Positions 19,130 through 41,667 of a DNA stretch of 64,000 nucleotides are shown here, piece by piece. The DNA comes from Antedon mediterranea (taxonomy: Eukaryota; Echinodermata; Crinoidea; Comatulida; Antedonidae), in NCBI RefSeq assembly GCF_964355755.1, contig NC_092672.1, positions 6,820,001 to 6,884,000 on the forward strand. The letters run 5' to 3'. The position numbers were made by a program, and so were the translations under genes. How positions within the stretch are numbered: the stretch's first letter is position 1; each line of letters begins with the position of its first letter. The notes under the pieces were generated by a model. That model saw only the letters and a program-made list of their open reading frames with translations, searched no databases and was not told where the DNA came from.

Positions 19130-22100
19130 TTATTTTCCAGATATTATAAGTAATATTACTGTGATTGTTACTATAACAACAACGATAAACAACACGATAA
19201 AGAGTAACCTGTCAACAAGTATGGCAACATTCCGCCAATTCTCCTTTTTAAAATTATTAAGTTCTTCTTTCTTATATTCATTCGAATATAGCCGCATTTC
19301 ATTCAATATCAGTTTTAATTCTTCTGGCGTCGAGTTAATTGCCGGGTCACTGATATACTTTATTCGTTCGTCAAACTGTGTGATACTGATAAACCTACCA
19401 GAGTAAACAGAAGCATCCGAATTAGAGTATGCCGTGTTTTCATTTCCGGTATCCATTTGCTTTTGGAAAATGTGTTCATTACAATAATATGCACTCGTCT
19501 TTCTACCAATTGCTTTTCCAACTTTTCCAAAAAGTATACTAGCTAGCCATTTTGGAATATCTTCAGGCTGATTGCGGTTATAGATGTTGAGCAAAACTGC
19601 ACTACAGACAATGCTAATACAACTCATACAAGTAAGCATTGTAAAGTATATTTCTGAAATAGTAAACAAAACAAATATTTAAGTTAGTCTAAACTGTTTT
19701 AGACTCCCTGATCTAGTTTCTTAAATTGTTATGCAAAATGATAATTTTCATCGTCATTGTCCTTCGTTTGGTGCACGATTCATTGTCTCCAATGGGAGTC
19801 CCCTTAACATGATGTTTCCTGAATAATGGTGTCATAAAAGAAGGGTTTTTTAAATCTCACCAATAAGTAAACATATTAATTACGAAAAAAACCTTACGGA
19901 GTATCGGTGTACTGTCGGCAGATGGTGGCAAAGCGTCGGATATCATTTGTTGGAATAAAAGAATCGACAGTAGGGTACTGACACCAAACGACATCTTCTC
20001 TCCACTTTCCGGTGGCAGCAAGAACACAAACATTGTCAAAATAGACAAGAGACAGCAAGGTAGAAGAATTATCTCGACAAAGAACCTCTCACGCCTTTTC
20101 AGAATAATTGTGAAAACAACTTTTGAGAAAGGTTCAGGACAACAATTGTATTTTTCTGTTATGTACTGAACACTGACGTCTTTCAGACTCCATGCACCGT
20201 TTGGATTAAACTGTGTTTGTTGGCTTTCACTTCCAGTCTCCGGGATTAGGTCCTGTTGTTTGATATGGTAATTCCAAGGCGCAAATTCTAGGGCACATTT
20301 CTGCTCATCAAATGGGAAATATTTTAAATACATCTTGCAGAAGCTTTTTACTATCATAGGTGTGGTTAAATGAACCGTACCCTCGTTATTTACCCTTAGA
20401 TGAAGCGACCTCTTAATTTGTTCAAATTCTCCATCAACGCTACAATACAAAAGTTTAATATAAAGTCTTATTACTTAATGTATAGGCTACTTTTATATAT
20501 ATAAAAAAACGTACTTGATTTAAGATAAAACACAAATTTAAGTAATGTATGAGGCTCAAACTTTTATTGAAAACAATTAAAATTGATTTGCGTTCCAATT
20601 AATATGAAACTTTTTAAAATTAGATTTTGCAGTTTTTGTTAAATTCCGACTAATATTCACTGACTGACAATTCAGACTGAATTTCGAGTTTTTTTTTCAT
20701 TATATCAATGGTTAGAAAATCGATAATGTTTTATTTACTGCGCTAACATCAATAAAATTGTAGAGGTCTATATATTACATTTGTGTCAGATGTTCAATGT
20801 TTCACAAATAAACGTTTTAGGAGTCTAGTCAACGACCATATTAAGTGTATTTCTTGTAACTCATATTTATAAATTAAAACACATTAAGGCCTACTTGAAA
20901 TGTGCTTGATGCTGTTTTTCATAAAAAGAAACCAAACTATTATTATTATTGTAATTAGACAGATTTGTATAATTAATTACGTAGGCTTACTTGTTATACA
21001 ATGTTACATCCGGGAGCCATAACGCTGACTGTTCCACGAAAATCTCGGTAATGTTGTTGTAATCATTCGGATCCCATACCATAAACTCGTCTTTCCAAAG
21101 CTTAAAAAATATATAATTTGGTCCTATATATACACATTTGACAGTTATAGAGAAACCAAAAACTAGAAATAATTTTTAATAAATACGTGCGAGTTATAGT
21201 CATATATACACGGCAGATCAACATAAATAAAGTATCTTTCTCTTGAAAAAAATTGGATTTCAATTTAAAACTAGACACTAGTCATTTACCATTGTGTAAG
21301 GTTTATATAATTATATCAAATGAGATCTCCTTTGCTTACAAAATTATAATTTTGTATTGAATTTGAATATTTTAATATATCGATATTGAATTCAGTAATA
21401 TAGTGTATAACGTTCGTTGAGTTTGTTTTAATGTCTGAAATGACTGCCTTGCTCCTGTAATTTTTTATGAATAAATACATACCATTTTAAACCATCCGCT
21501 AACTGTGATTTCTTGTCTTTTTTCGTTCTAAAAATTACAATCAATAGAAATGGACGACTTTCATTAGCATTATTTCAAAACAACCTAACATTCATTAAAG
21601 ATGTATTGTCCCCCAAAAACAAGAAAAATGAAGATTAATTAAATCGAACTTTGAATAGGTTATGTTGTAGTTTCAATAAAGTTAATCACTTCCGTAAGGA
21701 AAAAAAAAAAAAAAAAAAAAAAAAACAACAATGTTTTCACTTATAAAAATGACAAAATAAATGATTAAATTCAACTACAAATCTATTGGCTGGCAACTAA
21801 TTTGACTATTTTGCTTTAAATAACAGTTTTTCAGGTAAATACATTTTTTTTCGATCTAATTTTTGTTCAATGTGGATAACAATTATATGACATTAAAATG
21901 ACATATTGAAAAGAAATTTTTGTAATAATTATTTTTTCAGGGGGACAATACATCTTTAAGTGATGTGTGTCTGTCTTTCGTTCACTCAAAACAGAACATG
22001 GTAATGGTTTTAAATGCTAATATGTATTGGGTAATCAATTTTTATTGGTTATATTAATGGAAAATATCAATCATTTATACAAGTTAATGTTTACCGACCG

Positions 22101-23103
22101 ACCGACATAGTGAGCTGTAGAGTGGATACTGTAATGGTTCTATGTTAATATGTAATCGCTTATTGAGTAATCAGAAATTAACATTTTGTATTGGTTATTT
22201 TAAACCAGTAGCGGAGAAAAATCAGTCAGAATCATTTATAGAAACAACAAAAATCAGTGGAAAAAAATAGGGGATAGATGACAAGAGAGAGGCTGTCAAA
22301 AATGATGACTGTACTATTGTAAAACGTCAATGACAATTATATTACCATTACATAACCATTGTATTGTATCAGGGCTTTGATATAACAGTACATGTTTACT
22401 ATTAAATATTAGTGCATCTTTAAATTGATTTATAATCCTTTACATTATGGGAATTACTTTCAGAGTCTCTAGAGACACGTAAACAAGTAAACATCTTTAA
22501 ATATCTCGTTGTCGTGTCATGGTTACATTACACAAAATCACAAATATTGCCCATTTTTTTAAACAATAATAATATGTCAATCATGCAAATGAACTGACAT
22601 TTGATAATGTTCAAGATCAAATCAAAATAAAAACTTTCTTACGATTTCAATCACTTGTGATACAAGCAGTCGTATCGTGACCGTAACATTGTTCTTATGA
22701 TCTCGGACTGGTCTCGTTGACGGCTCTATATATTTATCCAGTAAGTCCCGTATTAATTGCGACTCTGTATTCGTAGCTAATGATTGTTTAACTGTAAATA
22801 AACACATTTGAAACAATGAAAAGGTAAATGTATTTATAATGTGTAAGGAGTGCGTGAAAGAGTAAGGCCTATATTTAATATCAGCGGCGGGTAGCCGAAC
22901 AAACAAAACAGATTAAAAACAAGTAGATGACTGCAATAATGAAGCAGATATGTAATATATATAATAACAAATATGAAATAGCAACATAACAAATAAAAAA
23001 ATTAATTTCCTAATGAATGACAACAAAATAATTGGAAAGAAAAATATTTACCTGAATAAAGTAAATACAATATAACGAGTATCAATAGTTGGAATAAATT
23101 CAT
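19130..23103 (-). CDS. G2: nicotinic acetylcholine receptor alpha-like subunit, six coding exons
   Basis: Predicted 473-residue cation-channel subunit. Coding exons are 23103-23052, 22791-22643, 21527-21483, 21100-20991, 20439-19898 and 19653-19130; GT-AG junctions and phases agree. Features: signal peptide starting MNLFQLL; sequons at NNVT and NNIT; loop D Trp79; loop A Trp110 and Tyr117; Cys-loop Cys153-Cys167 with FPFD; loop B Trp174; loop C Tyr216, Cys218-Cys219 and Phe223, where canonical alpha subunits have Tyr; TM1 about 239-260; TM2 about 268-286 with Glu266 at -1' and Leu276 at 9'; TM3 from 302; short cytoplasmic loop of about 100 residues with an amphipathic helix; TM4 near the C-terminus ending SGK. 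A non-coding 5' exon ends at 23379. Intron 2 carries a TTAA-flanked element. Nearest relative by shared changes is psiG5. Confidence 0.93.
21599..21955. mobile_element. TTAA-flanked miniature element in G2 intron 2
   Basis: Termini AGATGTATTGTCC and GGACAATACATCT are perfect inverts, with TTAA at 21595-21598 and 21956-21959. G3 and G4 have the uninterrupted site (ACATTTATTAAGTGATG, TTAA at 27700-27703 in G3), proving a TTAA target duplication. A run of about 26 adenines lies near 21701-21725. Non-coding. Confidence 0.85.
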
Positions 23104-23540: not shown

Positions 23541-25158
23541 CCTACTAGGCCTATAATACACACGTCTTTAATATTTTGACATGGATTTAGATGGCTACGC
23601 CTGCTACCAGCAATTAGTGATATTGAGGTTGTATAGTCTAGGTTCGAAAACGGCGATTCGACTTTAACATTGGTAAAAGGATAAATATTGTTGGCACACA
23701 TGGCGTGTTATATGTATACTTGAGCTGGAACATCTGATAGTTTCGGTTTTGTACAAAATATTCAAACCGTGTTGATTCGCTAGGTGGCGCTCGTAAAAGA
23801 ATTCTAGTATAACAACCAAGAGAGACTGAGACAAATAATACTTAGAAATATTTCTTGTTTTTAACTACGTACGGAGTGAACTTATATACAATTATATAAT
23901 CATAACCAAATATTACCTCTATAAATCAGAGATATCTGAGCATAATGTAGGCCTACCACAAATGAAATAACAGTGGTACGAGTCCTCCCACCCCGATCCA
24001 AAATTGATGAATCTTCTACACCTTCAACATCTTTAACAATGTTATATGTTTCAATCAGGTAAGGTAAAAAATTAAATTATTTGAGTTAGGCATAAACACA
24101 TTATATACGTAAGGACATTTAATTGTAATCGTACCAAATAAGAAAATAAAATACTGAGTAAGAAAGCCATTCACTTTCGTTATCAGTAATATTATAATAG
24201 CACTATATTATTATTATTATTTTTATCATAATCAAAATACAATGTTCAAATTCTAGTAATTATCTAATATCAAATCAGGAAAGATTGTAAAATCAAATGA
24301 ATGCTTCAAATTTGGTAAAAATATTTTGGATTAAAAGTTTGCATACGTGAATACATAACATAAATGAAACAGTTGTTACGCGATAAAGTATAGAGGGCAC
24401 AATACATTTCCAGATAATGAAGATAAAAACTCGACTTGATTTGAGTTATAATCCCATTAAAAAAATCTGGTAAAAATTGCGAAGTTTAGTGTTACGAACA
24501 TCTACGCATGCTCACAAAATCACAATGCTATGCTTTTACAGATTGATTTGATACAAGTGTTTATTGTGGGAGCATTTTTAACGAAATTTCACACTAAATA
24601 AATATATAAATATATACAGTTAATACGTCTGGTTCTAGGAGAAAAAAAACCCATTTATGATCACCAATTCCGCAACGAGTAGACTACTCTAAGAAGATAG
24701 AAATTTAAGGGATAAAGTGAAGTAAAATAAAGTGGATATTTTTCTATGTGTAGGCCTATTTGTAACAGTAGGATTTATCATACATAATTAAAACATTTTA
24801 TAATAATATAATAAGTACAGGTGAGTCCAGTATTTATTCTGAACGTAGGAAATCGTTAATTTTTCTTCTCGGTATGTGGTAAGCTGGCCAGTTCTTTCTC
24901 CTGTTTTTCGACTAGGTACTCATTTACAGCAATGGGCAGCTGAAACCGGGTATTTCTGTATACTATCCTAACAACTGGAATATCCAACTCCTTTATATTA
25001 TTATTATTCTCTTCAAATAACATCTTTTTTTGGCTAGAAATTTCTATATAGCGAAAGTGTTAATTTACTATTGGTAATCCTTGGTCACATGTGCCTAAAG
25101 ACATAGAATAACATATATATATAAAAATGTGATGAGATTGTTTTTTCAAAAGACTCAA
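23541..25158. other. Intergenic region between G2 and G3
   Basis: Repeated unit sequence, including CGATTCGACTTTAACATTGG, CACACATGGCGTG and TGATTCGCTAGGTGGCGCTC motifs and a stretch near 23920-24200 that is open in some copies but frameshifted in others. The border of units 1 and 2 lies near 24262. No gene supported. Confidence 0.6.
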
Positions 25159-28100
25159 TTATTTTCCAGATATTATAAGTAATATTACTGTGATTGTTAC
25201 TATAACAACAACGATAAACAACACGATAAAGAGTAACCTGTCAACAAGTATGGCAACATTCCGCCAATTCTCCTTTTTAAAATTATTAAGTTCTTCTTTC
25301 TTATATTCATTCGAATATAGCCGCATTTCATTCAATATCAGTTTTAATTCTTCTGGCGTCGAGTTAATTGCCGGGTCACTGATATACTTTATTCGTTCAT
25401 CAAACTGTGTGATACTGATAGACCTACCAGAGTAAACAGAAGCATCTGAATTAGAGTATGCCATGTTTTCATTTCCGGTATCCATTTCCTTTTGGAAAAT
25501 TTGTTCATTATAATAATATGCACTCGTCTTTCTACCAATTGCTTTTCCAACTTTACCAAAAAGTATACTAGCTAGCCATTTTGGAATATCTTCAGGCTGA
25601 TTGCAGTTATAGATGTTGAGCAAAACTGCACTACAGACAATGCTAATACAACTCATACAAGTAAGCATTGTAAAGTATATCTCTGAAATAGTAAACAAAA
25701 CAAATATTTAAGTTAGTCTAAACTGTTTAAACTCCCTGATCTAGTTTCTTAAATTGTTATGCAAAATGATAATTGTCATCGTCATTGTCCTTCGTTTGGT
25801 GCACGATTCATTGTCTCCAATGGGAATGTCCCCTTAACATGATGTTTCCTGAATAATGGTGTCATAAAAGAAGGGTTTTTTAAATCTCACCAATAAGTAA
25901 ACATATTAATTACGAAAAAAACCTTACGGAGTATCGGTGTACTGTCGGCAGATGGTGGCAAAGCGTCGGATATCATTTGTTGGAATAAAAGAATTGACAG
26001 TAGGGTACTGACACCAAACGACATCTTCTCTCCACTTTCCGGTGGCAGCAAGAACACAAACATTGTCAAAATAGACAAGAGACAGCAAGGTAGAAGAATT
26101 ATCTCGACAAAGAACCTCTCACGCCTTTTCAGAATAATTGTGAAAACAACTTTTGAGAAAGGTTCAGGACAACAATTGTATTTTTCTGGTATGTACTGAA
26201 CACTGACGTCTTTCAGACTCCATGCACCGTTTGGATTAAACTCTGTTTGTTGGCTTTCACTTCCAGTCTCCGGGATTAGGTCCTGTTGTTTGGCATGGTA
26301 AATCCAAGGCTCAAATTCTAAGGCACATTTCTGCTCATCAAACGGGAAATATTTTAAATACATCTTGCAGAAGCTCTTTACTATCATAGGTGTGCCTAAA
26401 TGAACCATACCATCGTTATTTACCCTTAAATGAAGCGACTTCTTTATTTGTTCAAATTCGCCATCAACGCTACAATACAAAACAGAAATCCTATTACTTA
26501 ATGTATAGGCTACTTTTATATACAAAGAAAACGCACTTAATTTAAGATAAAACACGAATTAAGTAATGTATAAGTCTAAAATTTTTATCAAAAATAATTA
26601 AAATTGATTTTCGCTCAAATTCATATCAAAATTTTTTATCTAGATTTTCAATTTTTGTACAATTCCGACTAATATTCACTGACTGCTTATTCAGACTGAA
26701 TTTTGAGTATTTTTTCATTATTTTAATGATTAGAAAATAGATAATATTTTATTTACTGCGCTAACATAAAACGTTAAACTTCGTTTTAAGTTATGGGAGT
26801 CTATCAATATTACATTTGTGCCAGATTTTCAATGTTACACAAAGCAAAGTTTTAGGAGTCTAGTCAACAACCAAATTAAGTGTATTTCTTGTAACTCATA
26901 TTCATAAATTAACACACATTAAGGCCTACTTGAAATATACTTAATGCTGTTTTTCATTAAAAAAACCCCAACGAACTAAATAATATTATTGTAATTAGGC
27001 AGATATATATAATTAATTACGTAGGCCTACTTGTTATGCAATGTAACATCCGGGAGCCATAATGCTGACTGTTCTACGAAAATCTCGGTAATATTGTTGT
27101 AATCATTCGGATCCCATACCATAAACTCGTCTTTCCAAAGCTTAACAAAAATATAATTAAGTCCTATATATACAGTTGACAGTTATAGAGAAACCATATA
27201 CTGTACTAGAAATCATATATAATAAGCACATGCGAGTTATAGTGTCATATATACACGGCAGATCAACATTCATTTTTGTACTCAAAGTATTTTTCTCTTT
27301 AAAATAGATTTTAATTTAAAACTAGATACTAATCATTTACCATTGTGTAAGGTTTATAAAATATACAATCCAGTTCATTGTTTGTACAATGGGAATTTAA
27401 TATATAGTTATATCAAACGAGATCTCATTTGCTAAAAAAATATAATTTTGTATTGAATTTGAATATTTTAATATATCGACATAGAATTCAATAATAACAT
27501 ATAGTGTATAACGCTCGTTGAGTTTGTTTTAATTTCTGGAATTACTGCCTTGCTTCTGTAATTTTTGTTATGAATAAATACATACCATTCTAAACCATCC
27601 GCTAACTGTGATTTCTTGTCTTTTTTCGTTCTAAAAATTACAATCAATAGAAATTTACGACTTCCATATTAGCATTATTACAAAATAACCTAACATTTAT
27701 TAAGTGATGTGTCAGGTTTGACGTTTAATGGAAAACAGAACATGGTATAATGGTTGTAAATGCTAATATGAGGCGTAGCTGTATTGGGTAAACACATTTT
27801 TTATTGGTTATTTTAGTGGAAAAAATCTTTTATATAGGCCTACAACAAAAAGCAGTGGCAAGTAAAAAACAAGGGGATCAGAAATTAACATTTTGTATTG
27901 GTTATTTGAAACCAGTACCGGAGAAAAATCATGTATAGAAACAACAAAAATCAGTGGAAAAAATAGGGGATAGCTGACAGGGGAGGGGCTGTCAAAAATT
28001 ATGACTGTACTATGTTTGTAAAACTTCAATAACCATTATATTACCATAACTATTGTACTGTTTCAGGGCTTTGATATAATAGTACATGTTTACTATTAAA

Positions 28101-28850
28101 CATTAGCGAATCGTTAAATTGATCTATAATCCTTTACATTATGGGAATTACTTTCAGAGTCTCTAGACACGTAAACAAGTAAACATCTTTAAATATCTCG
28201 TTGTGTTGTCATGGTTACATTACACAAAATCACAAATATTGCCCTTTTTTTTAACAATAATAATATGTCAATCATGCAAATGAACTGACATTTGATAATT
28301 TTCAAGATCAAATCAAAATAAAAACTTTCTTACGATTTCAATCACTTGTGATACAAGCAGTCGTATCGTGACCGTAACATTGTGTGTATGATCTCGGACT
28401 GGTCTCGTTGACGGCTCTATATATTTATCCAGTAAGTCCCGTATCAATTGCGACTCTGTATTCGTAGCTAATGATTGTTTAACTGTAAATAAACACAATT
28501 TGAAACAATGAAAAGGTAAATGTATTTATACTGTATAAGGATCTTTTCCACGCCGCCTTATCCTTTCTGAATTGTTGAGGTATGGATGTATGAATGATTC
28601 ATTGAACGAACGAATAAGTGAGTGAGGGAAAGAGTAAAGGTCCCTATTTAATTTCAGCGGCGGGTAGTCGAACAAACAAAACAGATTGAAAACACATAGA
28701 GGACTGCAATAATGAAACAGATATGTAATATATAATAATAATAAATATAAAATAGCTTATTAAGGAAGAAAAAAATAATTGGAGAGAAAAATATTTACCT
28801 GGATAAAGTAAATACAATATAACGAGCATCAGTAGTTGGAATAAATTCAT
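25159..28850 (-). CDS. G3: nicotinic acetylcholine receptor alpha-like subunit with His at loop A
   Basis: Predicted 473-residue subunit. Coding exons are 28850-28799, 28482-28334, 27630-27586, 27140-27031, 26469-25928 and 25682-25159, with intact splice sites and phases. It is very similar to G2: Cys-loop with FPFD, loop B Trp174, KYNCC loop C, TM2 with -1' Glu and 9' Leu, TM4 ending SGK. Unlike G2 and G6, the loop A motif reads LWLPDVTLHN, so Tyr117 is His; the codon is CAT. Phe is at 223. These are two of the aromatic residues that line the acetylcholine pocket, so ligand preference is likely altered. A non-coding exon ends at 29094. Close sister of G4. Confidence 0.93.
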
Positions 28851-29093
28851 TCTAACGACAAGTACAGAACCTGACAAATAGTAAAAATTAGATTTGATAA
28901 CTTTTTCCAATACAAATTGTACACACCATAATCCTAACTTGGGTTTCTATGTATGAATGCGAACACAAAGATAATTTTAAAGAAATACTAAAATCTCATT
29001 TTGCCAAATGTCAATATCTCGCGGTTTATTTGATAAAAATACCTTTAAATAAGTTAAAGCCTACAGAGAAAAATAAAAATAAAACATACTTAC

Positions 29094-29215
29094 TATTTGA
29101 AAAGTTTCAGTTACAAAGCAAAACAATGAACAGTATCTGCGACACTATCAATTTAATAAACACTTTAAAAATTCAAATGATGCATTGAATGAAGTCTGCT
29201 CCCTTTTTTTTATCA
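29094..29215 (-). other. G3 non-coding first exon (5' UTR)
   Basis: Same donor (GTAAGTATG) and exon sequence as G2. The acceptor of the coding exon is TTTGTCAG, after which 20 nt of leader (28870-28851) precede the ATG. The upstream limit is estimated. Confidence 0.55.
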
Positions 29216-29255
29216 TTATTAATTTGTAAACGTTGAGGGGGTAAATAAATAGGTA
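29216..29255 (-). promoter_or_regulatory. Candidate core promoter of G3
   Basis: The TACCCCCTCAACGTTTACAA block occupies 29243-29224 on the minus strand, with the TATA-like TATTTATTTACC directly upstream, as in G2. Confidence 0.45.
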
Positions 29256-30890
29256 CCTACTAGGCCTATAATACACACGTCTTTAATATTTTGACATTAA
29301 TTTAGATGGCTACGCCTGACCAGCAATTAGTGATATTGAGGTTGTATAGTCTAGGTTCGAAAACGGCGATTCGACTTTAACATTGGTAAAAGGATAAATA
29401 TTGTTGGCACACATGGCGTGTTATATGTATACTTGAGCTGGAACATCTGATAGTTTCGGTTTTGTACAAAATATTCAAACCGTGTTGATTCGCTAGGTGG
29501 CGCTCGTAAAAGAATTCTAGTACTGTATAACAACCAAGAGAGACTGAGACAAATAATACTTAGAAATATTTCTTGTTTTTAACTACGTACGGAGTGAACT
29601 TAAGTACAATTATATAATCATAACCAAATATTACCTCTATAAATCAGAGATATCTGAGCATAATGTAGGCCTACCACAAATGAAATAACAGTGGTACGAG
29701 TCCTCCCACCCCGATCCAAAATTGAGGAATCTTCTACACCTTCAACATCTTTAACAATGTTATATGTTTCAATCAGGTAAGGTAAAAAAATGTAATTATT
29801 TGAGTTAGGCATAAACACATTATATACGTAAGGACATTTAATTGTAATCGTACCAAATAAGAAAATAAAATACTGAGTAAGAAAGCCATTCACTTTCGTT
29901 ATCAGTAATATTATAATAGCACTATATTATTATTATTATTTTTATTATAATCAAAATACAATGTTCAAATTCTAGTAATTATCTAATATCAAATCTGGAA
30001 AGAGTGTAAGATCAAATGAATGCTTCAAATTTGGTAAAAATATTTTGAATTAAAAGTTTGCATACGTGAATACATAACATAAATGAAACAGTTGTTACGC
30101 GATAAAGTATAGAGGGCACAATACATTACCAGATAATGAAGATAAAAACTCGACTTGATTTGGGTTATAACCCCATTAAAGAATTCTGGTAAAAATTGCG
30201 AAGTTTAGTGTTACGAACATCTACGCATGCTCACAAAATCACAATGCTATGCTTTTACAGATTTGATATAACTGTTTAATGTGGGAGCATTTTTAACGAA
30301 ATTTCACACTAAATAAATATATAAATATAAATATATACCAGTTAATACGTCTAGTTCTAGGAGAAAAAACCCCATTTATGATCACCAATTCCGCAACGAG
30401 TAGACTACTATAAGAAGATAGACATGTAAGGGATAAAGTGAAGTAAAATAAAGTGGATATTTTTCTATGTGTAGGCATATTTGTAACAGTAGGATTTATC
30501 ATACATAATTAAAACATTTTATAATAATATAATAAGTACAGGTGAGTCCAGTATTTATTCTGAACGTAGGAAATCGTAAATTTTTCTTCTCAGAATGTGG
30601 TAAGCTGGCCAGTTCTTTTTCCTGTTTTTCGACTAGGTAGGCCTACTCATTTACAGCAATGGGCAGCTGAAACCGGGTATTTCTGTATACTATCCTAACA
30701 ACTCGAATACCCAACTCCTTTATATTATTATTATTATTCTCTTCAAATACCATAAGTTTTTATTGCTAGAAATTTTTATATAGCGAAAGTGTGAAAAGAA
30801 CGATCTTTTCCTATAAAACTACCGTTTATTGATTACTAAGCCTGCTGTAAATGTGTTTTGTAGACATGCAGATATCGCAAATTTAATAAA
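29256..30890. other. Intergenic region between G3 and the insertion beside G4
   Basis: Unit sequence shared with the other copies. The 91-codon frame at 29618-29893 is not maintained in units 1 and 3 because of indels in an A-run, so I do not call it a gene. The border of units 2 and 3 lies near 29978. Confidence 0.6.
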
Positions 30891-32438
30891 CTAGATGGCA
30901 CGCTCGCTTCGCTCGCGTACCATCTAGGTCGTGCCCACAGATGGTTCTCGAATACACAGTATTTCCAGCGAGAAAAAAATGGAGATTTCAAATGTACGTA
31001 CCGCAGGACTATAATACATTGTCGTTTACAGAAACGAATAAATATACACAATGATTTATGTAGTCAACCAAAATTAGCACCCTGGGAATTACTTCCGAGA
31101 GAGAAACAAATTTTTTTATTCGGACTCATTTAAACAAACCCAATTTGTGTTTTGTATGTAACATTAAGGGTTGAGGGATGGGGAAAGAAGATAGGTACAA
31201 AGAGGAAACATTTTAAAATATATTCTTATCCACTCAGTAACGAAATATTGTTTTTAATGTTTTATAGGCCTATAAATAATATACCACTAAATACAGTAAA
31301 ACATTTACGATTTAATACGGTACTTTGTTAAAACTCTCACTGTCATAGTCGATTGAAATAGTAAAGTACATGTAACGATACACCACTACGACGTTTATAT
31401 ATTTTTAAATTATTAATTAATACAAACGTTGAGAAGCAACTGTCAGTAATAACGTTTATTTATTTGTATATTATATGTTTATAATCTAACAGTAGGGCCT
31501 ACCCACACTCACAGTAATAAAGTTTATTTGTATATATTTTATATTACATCTAACAGTACCAACACTCACAGTAAGAAATTTGCGATTCAAATTGCGATCA
31601 AAAGTGGTTAATACCTTAACAGTATTGTACAGCATTGCAGTACTATTTATGTTTATTCTCCAAGGGGGCCCATAAATCTAAATCTATACCTCTATGGTTG
31701 AACCAAATAATTTGGAATGTTTATTTGTATATTATATGTTTATAATCTAACAGTAGGGCCTACCCACACTCACAGTAATAAAGTTTATTTGTATATATTT
31801 TTATATTACATCTAACAGTACCAACACTCACAGTAAGACATTTGCGATTCAAATTGCGATCAAAAGTGGTTAATACCTTAACAGTATTGTACAGCATTGC
31901 AATACTATTTATGTTTATTCTCCAAGGAGGCCCATAAATCTAAATCTATACCTGTATGGTTAAACCAAATAATTTGGAATGTTCCATTCATCACAAATCA
32001 ATACATTTGTAAAAACGTATATTAAATGTATCAAAATAGTATTTTTTAAAGAAAATCGGCCTGTCTTCAACATTATGATGCTGTACTCGAACTGTTCAAC
32101 CGGTTTTCAGCTATTAAAAACAATTATCGTAGGAGGAGATAGAAAAATGCGAAGCCTCCTCGCATTTTTGTGGCGGGTATTTTTCAAGATGGACATCCAT
32201 TAGACAGTGTATACCACGATCGGAAAACACCCCTATTTGGGGCAAATCTTTGAACCTAAATTAGTTTTAATCGTCAATAACTAATTATCTAACTTAATTT
32301 AATTAGTAAACAGGGTTACATCAGGTGGTTAAAATCAGTACCGAAAGTACGAACCAACTTTACATACCATCGAGTAAAAATTCTAAAAGTAAGGCGCGAT
32401 TTACCGAATTTTGCCCTTACGTAAATTTATATATAGAA
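30891..32438 (-). mobile_element. 1.55-kb insertion with Helitron-like ends
   Basis: Absent from the equivalent sites beside G2 and psiG5, where TTTAATAAAGCCTTCGC is continuous; here the insert separates TTTAATAAA from GCCTTCGC. Read on the minus strand it starts TCTATATATAAATTTACG (after a T) and ends GTGCCATCTAG before T, with a GC-rich hairpin CTAGATGGTACGCGAGC / GCTTCGCTCGCGTACC at that end. TC start, CTAG end and lack of a clear target duplication are Helitron/Helentron traits, but the hairpin includes the terminal CTAG, which is unusual. No Rep/helicase frame; non-autonomous. Confidence 0.45.
31461..31982. repeat. Two direct repeats of 261 bp inside the insertion
   Basis: Copies at 31461-31721 and 31722-31982 share ATCTAACAGTAGGGCCTACC, CAGTAAGA-ATTTGCGATTC and TATGTTTATTCTCCAAGG, differing by a handful of bases. 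The duplication is recent and internal to the mobile segment. No coding content. Confidence 0.85.
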
Positions 32439-32790
32439 GCCTTCGCTTTTTTTTTCGGAATAAGGAGACCTTCAATTTCTGTGTAATTCCTGGGATTTTG
32501 TCTCTTTATTATTTATATTTAAATATTTACTTTGTTACCTTAAAAAGAGAAAAAGAAATACATTTTATTTTAAATTGAATACTATTATTAGGGCTGACTG
32601 ACATTATTTTTATGTTATACAGTTGAGCCCCTATTAAGAGACCCAACAAAGTTCCCTTTATAGAGGTGTCCACTGAATAGGGTTGTTCTTAGATTAATTT
32701 ACTATTGGTAATCCTTAGTCACATGTGCCTAAAGACATCGAATAAAATATATATAAAAGTGTGATGAGATTGTTTTTGCAAAAGACTCAA

Positions 32791-35700
32791 TTATTTTCCA
32801 GATATTATAAGTAATGTTACTGTGATTGTTACTATAACAACAACGATAAACAACACGATAAAGAGTAACCTGTCAACAAGTATGGCAACATTTCGCCAAT
32901 TCTCTTTTTTGGAATTATTCAGTTCTTCTTTCTTATATTCATTCGAATGCAACCGCAGTTCATTCAATATCAGTTTTAATTCTTCTGGCGTCGAGTTAAT
33001 TGCCGGGTCACTGATATACTTTATTCGTTCATCAAACTGTGTGATACTGATAGACCTACCAGAGTAAACAGAAGCATCTGAATTAGAGTATGCCGTGTTT
33101 TCATTTCCGGTATCCATTTCCTTTTGGAAAATGTGTTCATTATAATAATATGCACTCGTCTTTCTACCAATTGCTTTTCCAACTTTTCCAAAAAGTATAC
33201 TAGCTAGCCATTTTGGAATATCTTCAGGCTGATTGCGGTTATAGATGTTGAGCAAAACTGCACTACAGACATGTACAATGCTAATACAACTCATACAAGT
33301 AAGCATTGTAAAGTATATCTCTGAAATAGTAAACAAAACAAATATTTAAGTTAGTCTAAACTGTTTTAGACTCCCTGATCTAGTTTCTTAAATTGTTATG
33401 CAAAATGATAATCGTCATCGTCATTGTCCTTCGTTTGGTGCACGATTCATTGTCTCCAATGGGAATGTCCGCTTAACATGATGTTTCCTGAATAATGGTG
33501 TCATAAAAGAAGGTTTTTTTAAATCTCACCAATAAGTAAACATATTAATTACGAAAAAAACTTACGGAGTATCGGTGTACTGTCGGCAGATGGTGGCAAA
33601 GCGTCGGATATCATTTGTTGGAATAAAAGAATTGACAGTAGGGTACTGACACCAAACGACATCTTCTCTCCACTTTCCGGTGGCAGCAAGAACACAAACA
33701 TTGTCAAAATAGACAAGAGACAGCAAGGTAGAAGAATTATCTCGACAAAGAACCTCTCACGCCTTTTCAGAATAATTGTGAAAACAACTTTTGAGAAAGG
33801 TTCAGGACAACAATTGTATTTTTCTGGTATGTACTGAACACTGACGTCTTTCAGACTCCATGCACCGTTTGGATTAAACTCTGTTTGTTGGCTTTCACTT
33901 CCAGTCTCCGGGATTAGGTCCTGTTGTTTGGCATGGTAATTCCAATGCTCAAATTCTAAGGCACATTTCTGCTCATCAGACGGGAAATATTTTAAATACA
34001 TCTTGCAGAAGCTCTTTACTATCATAGGTGTGCCTAAATGAACCGTACCATCGTTATTTACTCTTAGATGAAGCGACTTCTTTATTTGTTCAAATTCGCC
34101 ATCAACGCTACAATACAAAACAGAAATCCTATTACTTAATGTATAGGCTACTTTTAATTACAATGAAAAGGCACTTAATTTAAGATAAAACACGAATTAA
34201 GTAATGTATAAGTCTCAAATTTTTATCAAAAATATTTAAAATTGGTTTTCGCTCAAATTCATATCAAAATTTTTTATCTAAATTTTCAATTTTTGTACAA
34301 TTCCGACTAATATTTACTGACTGCTTATTCAGACTGAATTTTGAATATATTTTAATGATTAGAAAATAGATAATATTTTATTTACTGCGCTAACATAAAA
34401 CGTTAAACTTCGTTTTAAGTTATGGGAGTCTATCAATATTACATTTGTGCCAGATTTTCAATGTTACACAAAGCAAAGTTGTAGGAGTCTAGTCAACAAC
34501 CAAATTAAGTGTATTTCTTGTAACTCATATTCATAAATTAACACACATTAAGGCCTACTTGAAATATACTTAATGCTGTTTTTCATTAAAAAAACCCCAA
34601 CGAACTAAATAATATTATTGTAATTAGACAGATATATATAATTAATTACTGTACGTAGGCCTACTTGTTATGCAATGTAACATCCGGGAGCCATAATGCT
34701 GACTGTTCTACGAAAATCTCGGTAATATTGTTGTAATCATTCGGATCCCATACCATAAACTCGTCTTTCCAAAGCTTAACAAAAATATAATTAAGTCCTA
34801 TATATACAGTTGACAGTTTTAGAGAAACCATATACTAGAATTCATATAGAATAAACACATGCGAGTTCTCGTGTAATATATACACGGCAGATCAACATTT
34901 ATTTTTTGTACTCAAAGTATTTTTCTCTTTAAAATAGATTTCAATTCCAAACTAGACACTAATCATTTACCATTGTGTAAGGTTTATACAATATACAATC
35001 CAGTTCATTGTTTGTACAATGGGAATTTAATATATAGTTATATCAAACGAGATCTCATTTGCTAAAAAAATTTTGTATTGAATTTGAATATTTTAATATA
35101 TCGACATAGAATTCAATAATAACATATAGTGTATAACGCTCGTTGAGTTTGTTTTAATTTCTGAAATGACTGCCTTGCTCCTGCCTTTTATGAATAAATA
35201 CATACCATTTTAAACCATCCGCTAACTGTGATTTCTTGTCTTTTTTCGTTCTAAAAATTACAATCAATAGAAATTTACGACTTCCATTAGCATTATTACA
35301 AAATAACCTAACATTTATTAAGTGATGTGTCAGGTTTGACGTTTAATGAAAAACAGAACATGGTATAATGGTTGTAAATGCTAATATGAGGCGTAGCTGT
35401 ATTGGGTAATCACATTTTTTATTGGTTATTTTAGTGGAAAAAATCTTTTATATAGGCCTACAACAAAAAGCAGTGGCAAGTAATTAACGAGGGGATCAGA
35501 AATTAACATTTTGTATTGGTTATTTGAAACCAGTAGCGGAGAAAAATCATGTATAGAAACAACAAAAATCAGTGGAAAAAAATAGGGGATAGCTGACAGG
35601 GGAGGGGCTGTCAAAAATTATGACTGTACTATGTTTGTAAAACTTCAATAACCATTATATTACCATAACCATTGTACTGTTTCAGGGCTTTGATATAATA

Positions 35701-36471
35701 GTACATGTTTACTATTAAACATTAGTGAATCGTTAAATTGATCTATAATCCTTTACATTATGGGAATTACTTTCAGAGTCTCTAGACACGTAAACAAGTA
35801 AACATCTTTATATATCTCGTTGTCTTGTCATGGTTACATTACACAAAATCACAAATATTGCCCATTTTTTTTTAAACAATAATAATATGTCAATCATGCA
35901 AATGAACTGACATTTGATATTGTTCTAGATCAAATCAAAATAAAAACTTTCTTACGATTTCAATCACTTGTGATACAAGCAGTCGTATCGTTACCGTAAC
36001 ATTGTGTGTATGATCTCGGACTGGTCTCGTTGACGGCTCTATATATTTATCCAGTAAGTCCCGTATCAATTGCGACTCTGTATTCGTAGCTAATGATTGT
36101 TTAACTGTAAATAAACACAATTTGAAACAATGAAAAGGTAAATGTATTTATACTGTATAAGGATCTTTTCCACGCCGCCTTATCCTTTCTGAATTGTTGA
36201 GGTATGGATGTATGAATGAATCATTGAACGAACGAATAAGTGAGTGAGGGAAAGAGTAAAGGTCCCTATTTAATTGCAGCGGCGGGTAGTCGAACAAACA
36301 AAACAGATTGAAAACACATAGATGACTGCAATAATGAAACAGATATGTAATATATAATAATAACAAATATGAAATAGCTTATTAAGGAAGAAAAAAATAA
36401 TTGGAGAGAAAATATTTACCTGGATAAAGTAAATACAATATAACGAGCATCAGTAGTTGGAATAAATTCAT
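32791..36471 (-). CDS. G4: nicotinic acetylcholine receptor alpha-like subunit with several unusual residues
   Basis: Predicted 475-residue subunit. Coding exons are 36471-36420, 36104-35956, 35250-35206, 34774-34665, 34107-33566 and 33320-32791; splice sites are intact. It shares loop A His117 and loop C Phe223 with its sister G3. Specific oddities: the Cys-loop motif reads FPSD, not FPFD (Phe162 to Ser), at a position that couples ligand binding to gating in this family; residue 173 before loop B Trp174 is His; and exon 6 has a 6-nt in-frame insertion that adds His-Val inside TM3 (near position 315). The frame is otherwise open from start to stop. It may be a functional but altered subunit, or a gene in early decay. 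A non-coding exon ends at 36732. Confidence 0.9.
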
Positions 36472-36731
36472 TCTAACGACAAGTACAGGACCTGACAAAT
36501 AGTAAAAATTAGATTTGATAACTTTTTCCAATACAAATTGTACACACCATAATCCTAACTTGGGTTTCTATGTATGAATTGCGACCACAAAGATAATTTT
36601 GAAGAAATACTAAAATCTCATTTTGCCAAATGTCAATATCTCGCTGTTTGTTTCATAAGATAAAAATACCTTTAAATAAGTTAAAGCCTACAGAGAAAAT
36701 TACCTTGTAACAAAAAATAAAACATACTTAC

Positions 36732-36852
36732 TATTTGAAAAGTTTCAGATACAAAGCAAAACAATGAACAGTATCTGCGACACTATCAATTTAATAAACA
36801 CTTTAAAAATTCAAATGATGCATTGAATGAAGTCTGCTCCCTTTTTTTATCA
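36732..36852 (-). other. G4 non-coding first exon (5' UTR)
   Basis: Donor GTAAGTATG and exon body match G2 and G3. The coding-exon acceptor ends at 36492 and 20 nt of leader precede the ATG. The upstream limit is estimated. Confidence 0.55.
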
Positions 36853-36892
36853 TTATTAATTTGTAAACGTTGAGGGGGTAAATAAATAGGTA
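36853..36892 (-). promoter_or_regulatory. Candidate core promoter of G4
   Basis: TACCCCCTCAACGTTTACAA at 36880-36861 (minus strand) with an adjacent TATA-like TATTTATTTACC, identical to G2 and G3. Confidence 0.45.
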
Positions 36893-38856
36893 CCTACTAG
36901 GCCTATAATACACACGTCTTTAATATTTTGACATTAATTTAGATGTCTACGCCTGACCAGCAATTAGTGATATTGAGGTTGTATAGTCTAGGTTCGAAAA
37001 CGGCGATTCGACTTTAACATTGGTAAAAGGATAAATATTGTTGGCACACATGGCGTGTTATATGTATACTTGAGCTGGAACATCTGATAGTTTCGGTTTC
37101 GTACAATATATTCAAACCGTGTTGATTCGCTAGGTGGCGCTCGTAAAAGAATTCTAGTACTGTATAACAACCAAGAGAGACTGAGACAAATAATATTTCT
37201 TGTTTTTAACTACGTACGGAGTGAACTTAAGTAGAATTATATAATCATAACCAAATATTACCTCTATAAATCAGAGATATCTGAGCATAATGTAGGCCTA
37301 CCACAAATGAAATAACAGTGGTACGAGTCCTCCCACCCCGATCCAAAATTGAGGAATCTTCTACACCTTCAACATCTTTAACAATGTTATATGTTTCAAT
37401 CAGGTAAGGTAAAAAATGTAATTATTTGAGTTAGGCATAAACACATTATATACGTAAGGACATTTAATTGTAATCGTACCAAATAAGAAAATATAATACT
37501 GAGTAAGAAAGCCATTCACTTTCGTTATCAGTAATATTATAATAGCACTATATTATTATTATTATTTTTATTATAATCAAAATACAATGTTCAAATTCTA
37601 GTAATTATCTAATATCAAATCTGGAAAGAGTGTAAGATCAAATGAATGCTTCAAATTTGGTAAAAATATTTTGAATTAAAAGTTTGCATACGTGAATACA
37701 TAACATAAATGAAACAGTTGTTACGCGATAAAGTATAGAGGGCACAATACATTACCAGATAATGAAGATAAAAACTCGACTTGATTTGAGTTATAATCCC
37801 ATTAAAAAATTCTGGTAAAAATTGCGAAGTTTAGTGTTACGAACATCTACGCATGCTCACAAAATCACAATGCTATGTTTTTACAGATTTGATATAACTG
37901 TTTAATGTGGGAGCATTTTTAACGAAATTTCACACTAAATAAAAATATAAATATAAATATATACAGTTAATACGTCTAGTTCTAGGAGAAAAAACCCCAT
38001 TTATGATCACCAATTCCGCAACGAGTAGACTACTATAAGAAGATAGAAATTTAAGGGATAAAGTGAAGTAAAATAAAGTGGATATTTTTCTATGTGTAGG
38101 CCTATTTGTAACAGTAGGATTTATCATACATAATTAAAACATTTTATAATAATATAATAAGTACAGGTGAGTCCAGTATTTATTCTGAACGTAGGAAATC
38201 GTTAATTTTTCTTCTCGGTATGTGGTAAGCTGGCCAGTTCTTTCTCCTGTTTTTCGACTAGGTACTCATTTACAGCAATAGGCAGCTGAAACCGGGTATT
38301 TCTGTATACTATCCTAACAACTGGAATATCCAACTCCTTTATATTATTTTTATTCTCTTCAAATAACATCTTTTTTTTTTGGCTAGAAATTTCTATATAG
38401 CGAAAGTGTGAAAAGAACGATCTTTTCCTATAAAACTACCGTTTATTGATTACTAAGCCTGCTGTAAATGTGTTTTGTAGACATGCAGATATCGCAAATT
38501 TAATAAAGCCTTCGCTTTTTTATGGAATAAGGAGACCTTCAATTTCTGTGTAATTCCTGGGATTTTGTCTCTTTATTATTAATATTTAAATATTTACTTT
38601 GTTACATTAAAAAGTGAAAAAGAAATACATTTTATTTTAAATTGAATACTATTATTAGGGCTGACTGAAATTATTTTTATGTTATACAGTTGAGCCCCTA
38701 TTAAGAGACCCAACAAAGTTCCCTTTATAGAGGTGTCCACTGAATAGGATTATTCTTAGATTAATTTACTATTGGTAATCCTTGGTCACATGTGCCTAAA
38801 GACATAGAATAAAATATATATAAAAGTGTGATGAGATTGTTTTTTCAAAGACTCAA
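36893..38856. other. Intergenic region between G4 and psiG5
   Basis: Repeat-unit sequence collinear with 23541-25158. It contains the intact TTTAATAAAGCCTTCGC site that serves as the empty-site reference for the insertion beside G4. No gene supported. Confidence 0.6.
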
Positions 38857-40932
38857 TTATTTTCCAGATATTATAAGTAATATTACTGTGATTGTTACTA
38901 TAACAACAACGATAAACAACACGATAAAGAGTAACCTGTCAACAAGTATGGCAACATTCCGCCAATTCTCCTTTTTAAAATTATTAAGTTCTTCTTTCTT
39001 ATATTCATTCGAATATAGCCGCATTTCATTCAATATCAGTTTTAATTCTTCTGGCGTCGAGCTAATTGCCGGGTCACTGATATACTTTATTCGTTCATCA
39101 AACTGTGTGATACTGATAGACCTACCAGAGTAAACAGAAGCATCCGAATTAGAGTATGCCGTGTTTTCATTTCCGGTATCCATTTCCTTTTGGAAAATGT
39201 GTTCATTACAATAATATGCACTTGTCTTTCTACCAATTGCTTTTCCAACTTTACCAAAAAGTATACTAGCTAGCCATTTTGGAATATCTTCAGGCTGATT
39301 GCGGTTATAGATGTTGAGCAAAACTGCACTACAGACAATGCTAATACAACTCATAGAAGTAAGCATTGTAAAGTATATCTCTGAAATAGTAAACAAAACA
39401 AATATTTAAGTTAGTATAAACTGTTTTAGACTCTCTGATCTAGTTTCTTAGAGTGTTATGCAAAATAATAATTGTCATCGTCATTGTCCCTCATTTGTGC
39501 AACAAATAATGTTGTCTTAAAGAAAGTTTTTTTTAAACTCACCAATAAGTAAACATATTAATTACGAAAATAACCGTACGGAGTATCGGTGTACTGTCGG
39601 CAGATGGTGGCAAAGCGTCGGATATCATTTGTTGGAATAAAAGAATTGACAGTAGAGTACTGACACCAAACGACATCTTCTCTCCACTTTCCGGTGGCAA
39701 CACGAACACAAACAGACAGCAAGGTAGAAGAATTATCTCGACAAAGAACCTCTCACGCCTTTTCAGAGTAATTGTAAAAACAACTTTTGAGAAAGGTTCA
39801 GGACAGCAATTGAATTGTTCTGGTATGTACTGAACACTGACGTCTTTCAGACTCCATGCACCGTTTGGATTAAACTCAGTTTGTTGGCTTTCACTACCAG
39901 TCTCTGGGATTAGATCCTGTTGTTTGGTATGGTAATTCTAAGGCGCAAATTCTAAGGCACATTTCTGCTCATCAAACGGGAAATATTTTAAATACATCTT
40001 GCAGAAGCTTTTTACTATCATAGGTGTGCCTAAATGAACCATACCTATTTACCCTCAGATGAAGCGACCTCTTAATTTGTTCAAATTCACCATCAACGCT
40101 GCAATACAAATGTTTAATATACAGTCTTATTACTTAATGTATAGGCTACTTTTATTAAAGAAAACGAACTTGATTTAACACGAATTAAGTAATGTATGAG
40201 TCTCAAACTTCGGAATTAATTAAAATTAATTTGCGTTCCAATTCATATCAAACTTTTTAAAATTAGATTTTCAGTTTTTGTACAATTCCGACTTATATTC
40301 ACTTACTGATAATTCAGACTGAATTTCGATTTTTTTTTTTATTATAGCAATGGTTAGAAAATCGATAATGTTTTATTTACTGCGCTAACATCAATCAAAT
40401 TGTAGAGGTCTATTGTTACCGTACATTTGTGCCAGATGTTCAATGTTTCACAAAGCAAAGTTTTAGGAGTCTAGTCAACAACCAAATGAAGTGTATTTCT
40501 TGTCTCATATTCATAAATTAAAACCCATTAAGGCCTTCTTGAAATGTGCTTCATGCTGTTTTTCATAAAAAAGAAACCCAACAAACTATTATTATTATTT
40601 TTGTAATTAGACAGATTTATATAATTAATTACGTAGGCCTACTTGTTATACAATGTTACATCCGGGAGTCATAACGCTGACTGTTCCACGAAAATCTCGG
40701 TAATGTTGTTGTCATCATTCGGATCCCATACCATAAACTCGTCTTTCCAAAGCTTAAAAAATATATAATTGGGTTCTATATTACATACATTTGTAAGACA
40801 AGGGGATGTAATGTCTCCTCTATTATACAATGTATATGTTGACACTTTTAGTACGTCTCTTTGATATACTGAAATTTAATTAATTAATTTGAAACGATAA
40901 AGATGAGGAAATCTGTGAGAATGAGAAAAAGT

Positions 40933-41004
40933 TGCCCCAACCGAGACTCGAACTCGGACCGCCTGCTTGATATGCAGATGTCCTAACCATTAGACCACCG
41001 GGGC
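40933..41004 (-). tRNA. tRNA-like gene with anticodon AUC (copy 1)
   Basis: The 72-nt cloverleaf folds completely: 7-bp acceptor GCCCCGG/TTGGGGC (two G-U), D stem GTCT/GGAC with loop AATGGTTA, anticodon stem TCTGC/GCAGG with loop ATATCAA, T stem CCGAG/CTCGG with loop TTCGAGT, discriminator A. U8, GG in the D loop, U33 and TTC-A in the T loop are present. Anticodon AUC would read the Asp codon GAU, which canonical tRNA-Asp (GUC) normally covers. The D-arm resembles tRNA-Glu. It may be a SINE head, not a working tRNA. Confidence 0.65.
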
Positions 41005-41296
41005 TTTCATGGTATTGTTCGAACTCGATTGGATAGCGACTCTTTAACATTCTCGGCGTGGTACGGCGGAACAGCACTAGTCCTCAGTTGTACGCACGCG
41101 CACCAGAGATCAAATTGATACGCCCTCATCTTACAGTATTTTTATTCACGAGGCGGGATCTCAGAAGAGATACTTTTATATATATAAACAAATTAGGCAC
41201 AGAACATTAATTCTAAACCGCCCAGTGATATACTGAAATTTAATTAATTAATTTGAAACGATAAAGATGAGGAAATCTGTGAGAATGAGAAAAAGT

Positions 41297-41368
41297 TGCC
41301 CCAACCGAGACTCGAACTCGGACCGCCTGCTTGATATGCAGATGTCCTAAGCATTAGACCACTGGGGC
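41297..41368 (-). tRNA. tRNA-like gene with anticodon AUC (copy 2, probably degenerate)
   Basis: Differs from copy 1 at two sites: the invariant D-loop GG becomes GC, and the sixth acceptor base is A, turning a G-U into an A-U pair. Loss of the D-loop G probably harms tertiary folding. Otherwise the cloverleaf is the same. Confidence 0.5.
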
Positions 41369-41667
41369 TTTCATGGTATTGTTCGATATAATTATATCAA
41401 ACGAGATCTCATTTGCTAAAAAAATATAATTTTGTATTGAATTTGAATATTTTAATATATCGATATTGAATTCAGTAATAACATATATATAAACGCTCGT
41501 TGAGTTTATTGTAATGTCTGAAATGACTGCCTTGCTACTATAAATTGTTTTGATGAATAAATCCATACCATTCTAAACCATCCCCTAACTGTTATTTCTT
41601 GTCTTTTTTCGTTCTAAAAATTACAATCAATTGCAATGGACGACTTTCATTAGCATTATTACAAAAA

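Follow-up and report, generated by a model that had tools for sequence, protein, structure and literature searches.

Histidine at the loop A tyrosine position of two tandemly duplicated nicotinic-type receptor genes in Antedon mediterranea

Introduction

When a nicotinic-type receptor subunit loses one of the core aromatic residues of its acetylcholine (ACh) pocket, has it changed its ligand or has it begun to decay? The question is raised by a 64,000 bp stretch of the Antedon mediterranea genome, C3:6,820,001-6,884,000 in a single 354-Mb animal assembly, referred to here as the window. The window forms part of an array of nicotinic-type genes on the minus strand, which spans approximately 6.806 to 6.946 Mb on C3. 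An initial annotation had pointed out that two sister genes, G3 and G4, encode His in place of the loop A Tyr, and had taken this to suggest changed ligand choice rather than decay.

The loop A codon in G3 and G4

The two genes and the codons in question are as follows.

25159-28850, minus strand: G3, intact six-exon gene, 473 amino acids (exons 28850-28799, 28482-28334, 27630-27586, 27140-27031, 26469-25928 and 25682-25159)
32791-36471, minus strand: G4, intact six-exon gene, 475 amino acids (exons 36471-36420, 36104-35956, 35250-35206, 34774-34665, 34107-33566 and 33320-32791)
27036-27038, minus strand: loop A Tyr93 position in G3, codon 117, CAT for His, from the reading and the alpha7 alignment
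34670-34672, minus strand: loop A Tyr93 position in G4, codon 117, CAT for His, from the reading of the gene model

Exon 4 of G3 (27140-27031) and exon 4 of G4 (34774-34665), each 110 nt on the minus strand with consensus splice sites, both translate to LWKDEFMVWDPNDYNNITEIFVEQSALWLPDVTLHN, and codon 117 (27038-27036 and 34672-34670, respectively) reads CAT, for His, as the initial annotation had reported. The identification of this position with Tyr93 also stood, as the local alignment to human alpha7 is gap-free there. The alignment of loops A, B and C to alpha7 was given independently by a search of the PDB as well. A sequencing error, which the annotation had named as a possible source of the His, is very unlikely, because the identical base is found at two separate loci amid independent flanking differences.

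The paralogues read for comparison are as follows.

19130-23103, minus strand: G2, intact paralogue with loop A Tyr, 473 amino acids
45106-53469, minus strand: G6, intact paralogue of 473 amino acids in which loop A and both loop C positions have Tyr
6235-13003, minus strand: G1, more distant paralogue, exons 2-6 read, with loop A Tyr (TAC) and the canonical K145
38857-41613, minus strand: psiG5, pseudogene that retains the Tyr codon

Codon 117 is TAT in G2, psiG5, G6 and a further gene, G7, and TAC in G1, all of which specify Tyr. This agrees with the earlier reading of G1, G2, psiG5 and G6, with the qualification that the Tyr of psiG5 lies in a broken exon, where the loop A Trp is replaced by TGA.

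A genome-wide search for exon 4 returned 34 copies, 30 of which read Tyr, the broken psiG5 exon included; one of these, at C11:4,145,936 (L047), reads WWPNLIVYN. The remaining four are the His of G3 and G4, one more His and one Leu. The third His is in a divergent array member (exon 4 at C3:6,917,125-6,917,223; L014 3940-4725, minus strand) that reads WTPDAKLHQ and lacks the loop B Trp, the pair of adjacent loop C cysteines (CC pair) and the GEK motif. Loop A Leu occurs in two array members (L015 and L016), at C3:6,939,215 and, found via a Pfam search only, at approximately 6.946 Mb. All three members, at 6.917, 6.939 and 6.946 Mb, are without the CC pair. Thus, His is not confined to G3 and G4 in the array as a whole, where the third His lies outside the window, but among the CC-containing copies read it is found at loop A in G3 and G4 only, and all others have Tyr. 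Further clusters of Cys-loop receptor genes were seen at C3:37.07-37.60 Mb, C6:3.3-3.5 Mb, C6:18.4 Mb and C5:31.5-31.9 Mb, and the clusters elsewhere in the genome include a GABA-A (gamma-aminobutyric acid type A receptor) alpha-like exon with FFHND (L049).

One event before a recent duplication

G3 lies in a tandem unit that is duplicated in the unit containing G4.

25060-30890, minus strand: tandem unit with G3, duplicated as 32694-38507 with G4

Over 5.8 kb, the two units share 96.6% identity, and the substitution divergence between G3 and G4 is 2.4% in noncoding DNA and 1.5% in exons. The noncoding DNA of G2 differs from that of both by approximately 7%, and G2 and psiG5 carry the same tandem unit, in series with G3 and G4. 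As G3 and G4 are recent tandem copies and Tyr is encoded, by TAT or TAC, in all outgroup copies, the most parsimonious account is a single T-to-C transition, TAT to CAT, on the lineage between the divergence from G2 and the duplication. Two independent His events were rejected, as G3 and G4 represent one duplicated unit, and later gene conversion between them is possible and would leave the number of events unchanged. The two genes are therefore not two witnesses to the change but two young copies that inherited it once.

The identity of 96.6% falls in the allelic range of some marine invertebrates, and the evidence comes from one assembly only. G3 and G4 could then be haplotypes placed in tandem by the assembler, or the His could be segregating. 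However, the window contains no gap bases, the G3 and G4 units are 1.8 kb apart, and the tandem unit is repeated also as G2 and psiG5. G3 and G4 are also set apart by indels and by their 3' part, where G4 (33320-32791 and 34107-33566) is unusually divergent from G3 (7.7%, against 2.4% in noncoding DNA overall). We therefore consider an artefact or allele extremely improbable. Several codons in the 3' end of G4 match G6, which suggests a mosaic history for this part of the gene.

Subunit type and the remainder of the pocket

The six-exon frames of G2, G3, G4 and G6 are complete, encode 473-475 residues and have consensus splice sites. The product of G3 matches the Pfam domains Neur_chan_LBD (PF02931, E=7.3e-57) and Neur_chan_memb (PF02932, E=3.8e-28), the domain content of a Cys-loop receptor, and as transmembrane segments TM1-TM4 are encoded it is not a soluble acetylcholine-binding protein. 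The Cys loop, two cysteines 13 residues apart with FPxD between them, is CKMYLKYFPFDEQKC in G3 and contains FPSD in G4. The vicinal loop C cysteines that mark alpha-type subunits are present in G2, G3 and G4 as YNCCPEPF, and GEK, of the cation type, stands at the cytoplasmic end of TM2 (PPESGEKMSFGVSTLL). By these motifs, the intact genes G3 and G4 encode alpha-type, cation-type subunits resembling those of nicotinic receptors.

The aromatic box is incomplete in both, with His for the loop A Tyr and Phe for the second loop C Tyr; the loop D Trp, the loop B Trp and the first loop C Tyr are kept, as is the CC pair. An incomplete box does not strictly exclude a subunit from the alpha type, because the full principal binding site is present in only 13 of 33 alpha-type subunits of the oyster Crassostrea gigas and 20 of 33 deviate (PMC6896357). 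The claim that everything else is intact fits G3 better than G4, in which the FPF of the Cys loop has become FPS (Phe to Ser) and a 6 nt insertion adds two residues (Val-His) to TM3; G3 retains FPF and is without the insertion.

The loop C Phe had been counted with the His as part of the same departure. It is present in G3 and G4 but is not specific to them, as it is common to G2 and psiG5 and recurs in at least six other copies (L005, L008, L027, L032, L038 and L041). We therefore rejected it as part of the same change, and it adds little, because G2, which keeps the Tyr, shares it. About a dozen changes fall in the pocket loops, the His among them. In loop E, G3 and G4 have Gly at L119 and His at Q117, the latter found in G2 too, and their pocket differs from that of G2 at position 119 and also near loop B (positions 147 and 153).

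At the positions of K145 and D200, which are common in alpha-type subunits though not strictly defining for them, the canonical pair is not found in G2-G4, G6 or G7. G2-G4 have Glu and Lys, and G6 and G7 have Glu and either Arg or Lys, and the pair is charge-reversed throughout G2, G3, G4, psiG5, G6 and G7. Lys is present at 145 in G1 and in the copy at C3:6,805,976. In muscle receptors, K145-D200 has been proposed as an activation salt bridge (PMC11655062), and human alpha7 D197N, altered at the residue equivalent to D200, is nearly insensitive to ACh (PMC4560414). Read from sequence, the reversal in the whole subclade is a deeper departure from the canonical ACh receptor, and is independent of the His. 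The statement that the pocket of G3 and G4 departs from the canonical one thus holds for the His and Phe seen there, but the subclade, G2 included, already departs at K145/D200 and in loop E.

Selection on the genes and on the binding loops

In a branch codon model fitted to G3, G4, G2, psiG5 and G6, the ratio of nonsynonymous to synonymous substitution rates (omega) of the G3/G4 clade was 0.29, and a value of 1.0 was rejected (p = 0.00045). As both genes are under purifying selection, neutral evolution, which the annotation had set against its own reading, is refuted, and with it neutral decay. Under early decay, G3 and G4 would be in the first stages of becoming pseudogenes like psiG5, with the His as a harmful passenger; adjoining psiG5 is broken, and G4 has the FPS and two extra TM3 residues noted above. 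Yet both reading frames are open with all splice sites present, omega outside the loops is 0.23, that of the clade is significantly below 1, and the lesions of G4 are all absent from G3. We regard this as highly improbable.

Change among the young copies is concentrated in the six ligand-binding loops, which were set by standard ranges in alpha7 numbering and cover 79 of the 210 extracellular residues. G2, G3 and G4 vary at 15 extracellular residues, 11 of which fall in the loops, against 4 of 13 synonymous changes (Fisher p = 0.03). Between G2 and G3, omega is 1.08 in the loops; the remainder of the extracellular domain has 0.08 and the other parts of the coding sequence 0.39. A partitioned codon model gave 1.09 for the loops against 0.23 elsewhere on the recent branches (likelihood ratio statistic 16.6, p = 4.6e-5). 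Gene conversion that imported old variation was considered as a source of this signal and judged improbable, as tracts acquired in this way would be expected to carry the long-term ratio of the loops, 0.29 for G2-G6, though conversion may well occur in the array.

Intact, constrained genes with loop-concentrated change fit altered ligand recognition better than decay. Several results weigh against that reading. The omega of the G3/G4 clade is the same as that of the background (p = 0.96), so the selection test revealed purifying selection and loop concentration but no overall acceleration specific to this lineage. The loop value of 1.09 is not different from 1 and so gives no evidence of positive selection. 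The loop counts in these tests are small, and when the loop mask was slid round the domain by circular shift, with clustering kept, p was 0.024 and rose to 0.20 without loop B. The loop signal is therefore modest and comes mostly from loop B (positions 147, 148, 150 and 153). It fits either ligand-driven diversification or a loss of pocket constraint, with which a loop omega of approximately 1, and not above it, is compatible. The proposal of changed ligand choice rather than decay is thus borne out as to intactness, constraint and the concentration of change, but relaxed constraint accommodates the loop ratio too.

Under relaxation, G3 and G4 would be partner subunits whose principal face no longer binds agonist, so that the loop changes, His included, are near-neutral and only the fold and channel are constrained. 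Non-alpha subunits generally manage without the loop A Tyr, and the three most divergent array members read, which are non-alpha and have no CC pair, have lost it (His, Leu and Leu). A retired face would, however, be expected to lose the CC pair, the first loop C Tyr and the loop B and D Trp, all of which G3 and G4 keep, and no other CC-containing copy read has lost the loop A Tyr. We regard relaxation as the main alternative, possible but somewhat doubtful.

Comparison with known receptors

Among solved structures, the best match of G3 is human alpha7 (CHRNA7, E=5.5e-65), with which G3 and G4 share the Cys loop, the CC pair, the loop B and D Trp and the GEK entrance to TM2. They differ from it in having His for Tyr93, Phe for the second loop C Tyr, Glu for K145, Lys for D197 (D200 in muscle), Gly for L119 and His for Q117. 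The hydroxyl of the loop A Tyr has been called crucial for ACh recognition in a review (PMC4006026), and alpha7 Y93C is nearly insensitive to ACh and is rescued by an allosteric modulator, hence surface-expressed (PMC4560414). Were the His instead a tolerated change that still makes an ACh-like contact, pharmacology would be little altered and G3 and G4 would be ordinary ACh receptor subunits. The clade's background-level omega is consistent with this, but the behaviour of Y93C argues the other way, and residues nearby in loops B and E are altered, as is the K145/D200 pair; we consider it quite unlikely.

His at the homologous loop A position is known from GABA-A alpha1-3 and alpha5 (His101), where it decides ligand affinity (PMC4006026, PMC3407089). 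The two sources disagree on alpha4: the first gives His for alpha1-5 and ties it to benzodiazepine affinity, and the second reports the same effect but has Arg in alpha4. GABA-A alpha subunits belong to an anion-channel family, have the loop A motif WxPDTFFxN and no CC pair, and carry their His at an allosteric interface rather than the agonist site; G3 and G4 have WLPDVTLHN together with the CC pair.

The octopus and squid chemotactile receptors are also a nAChR (nicotinic acetylcholine receptor)-derived expansion with amino-acid change, and in octopus selection, concentrated in the pocket (PMC11526382). They are gated by hydrophobic molecules and lack the signature ligand motifs common to nAChRs (PMC10338036), whereas G3 and G4 retain the CC pair and most of the box, and their loop omega is approximately 1, not above. 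The expanded lophotrochozoan nAChR genes, such as those of C. gigas, are likewise tandem arrays with imperfect principal sites (PMC6896357). Alpo4 of Alvinella is another nAChR-like invertebrate receptor with an altered loop A (Phe103) and a natural ligand that is unknown (PMC10338036), but it has neither the CC pair nor a loop A His, and its pocket His is on loop E. In the nAChR literature searched, we found no description of a loop A His in an alpha-type subunit or of a K145/D200 charge reversal, and no measurement of a loop A Tyr replaced by His. Nicotinic arrays with imperfect sites are already established, and the loop A His and the reversed pair appear to be new features of such an array.

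Other features of the array

In psiG5, a TGA at the loop A Trp is accompanied by a TAG at the loop B Trp and a 23 nt deletion in exon 5, and exons 1-2 were not found. Its exon 6 is approximately 98% identical to that of G2 despite the stops at two signature tryptophans, a closeness that suggests recent death or conversion. The exon 4 sequences of G6 and G3 share approximately 90% DNA identity, against 78-80% for neighbouring exons, as if exon 4 of G2-G6 (e.g. at 21100-20991 and 51333-51224) had been homogenised by conversion or were unusually constrained. Exon 4 of G7 is just outside the window, and the stretch from G2 to G7 occupies window positions 19130-60347 on the minus strand. Intron 4 of G6 contains two open reading frames resembling reverse transcriptase of a non-long terminal repeat retrotransposon (48483-50736, minus strand), and upstream of exon 2 of G1 there is a minisatellite (14803-15190) with 12.6 copies of a 31 bp repeat.

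Conclusions

The explanation we favour is that G3 and G4 encode functional subunits of the alpha type, belonging to a pentameric cation-selective channel of nicotinic type, and that the young copies of their array differ chiefly in the ligand pocket. Because the subclade has Glu and Lys or Arg at K145-D200, the receptor probably no longer resembled a classical ACh receptor by the time the His arose. One Tyr-to-His replacement in loop A arose after the G2 split and before the duplication, beside other pocket changes, and an imidazole would take the place of an agonist-contacting phenol that adjoins the loop B Trp and the first of the loop C tyrosines. Binding or gating by ACh may be weakened as a result, and the receptor may favour some other ligand. 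That these are functional subunits in which ACh recognition is reduced or altered has, in our estimation, about an even chance of being correct. A more specific proposal, that G3 and G4 are gated by a ligand other than ACh and that the loop A His, possibly with the loop E His across the interface, confers dependence on pH, metal or a new ligand, independently of the His of GABA-A alpha, is on present evidence unlikely.

If the favoured explanation is correct, G2, G3 and G4 would represent a series of stepwise ligand-pocket change in a neurotransmitter receptor, within one tandem array. As the copies are only a few percent apart and differ mainly in the binding loops, the effect of the His could be isolated by swapping a single codon, and the array would provide a naturally occurring case in which to ask whether the K145-D200 activation pair tolerates charge reversal.
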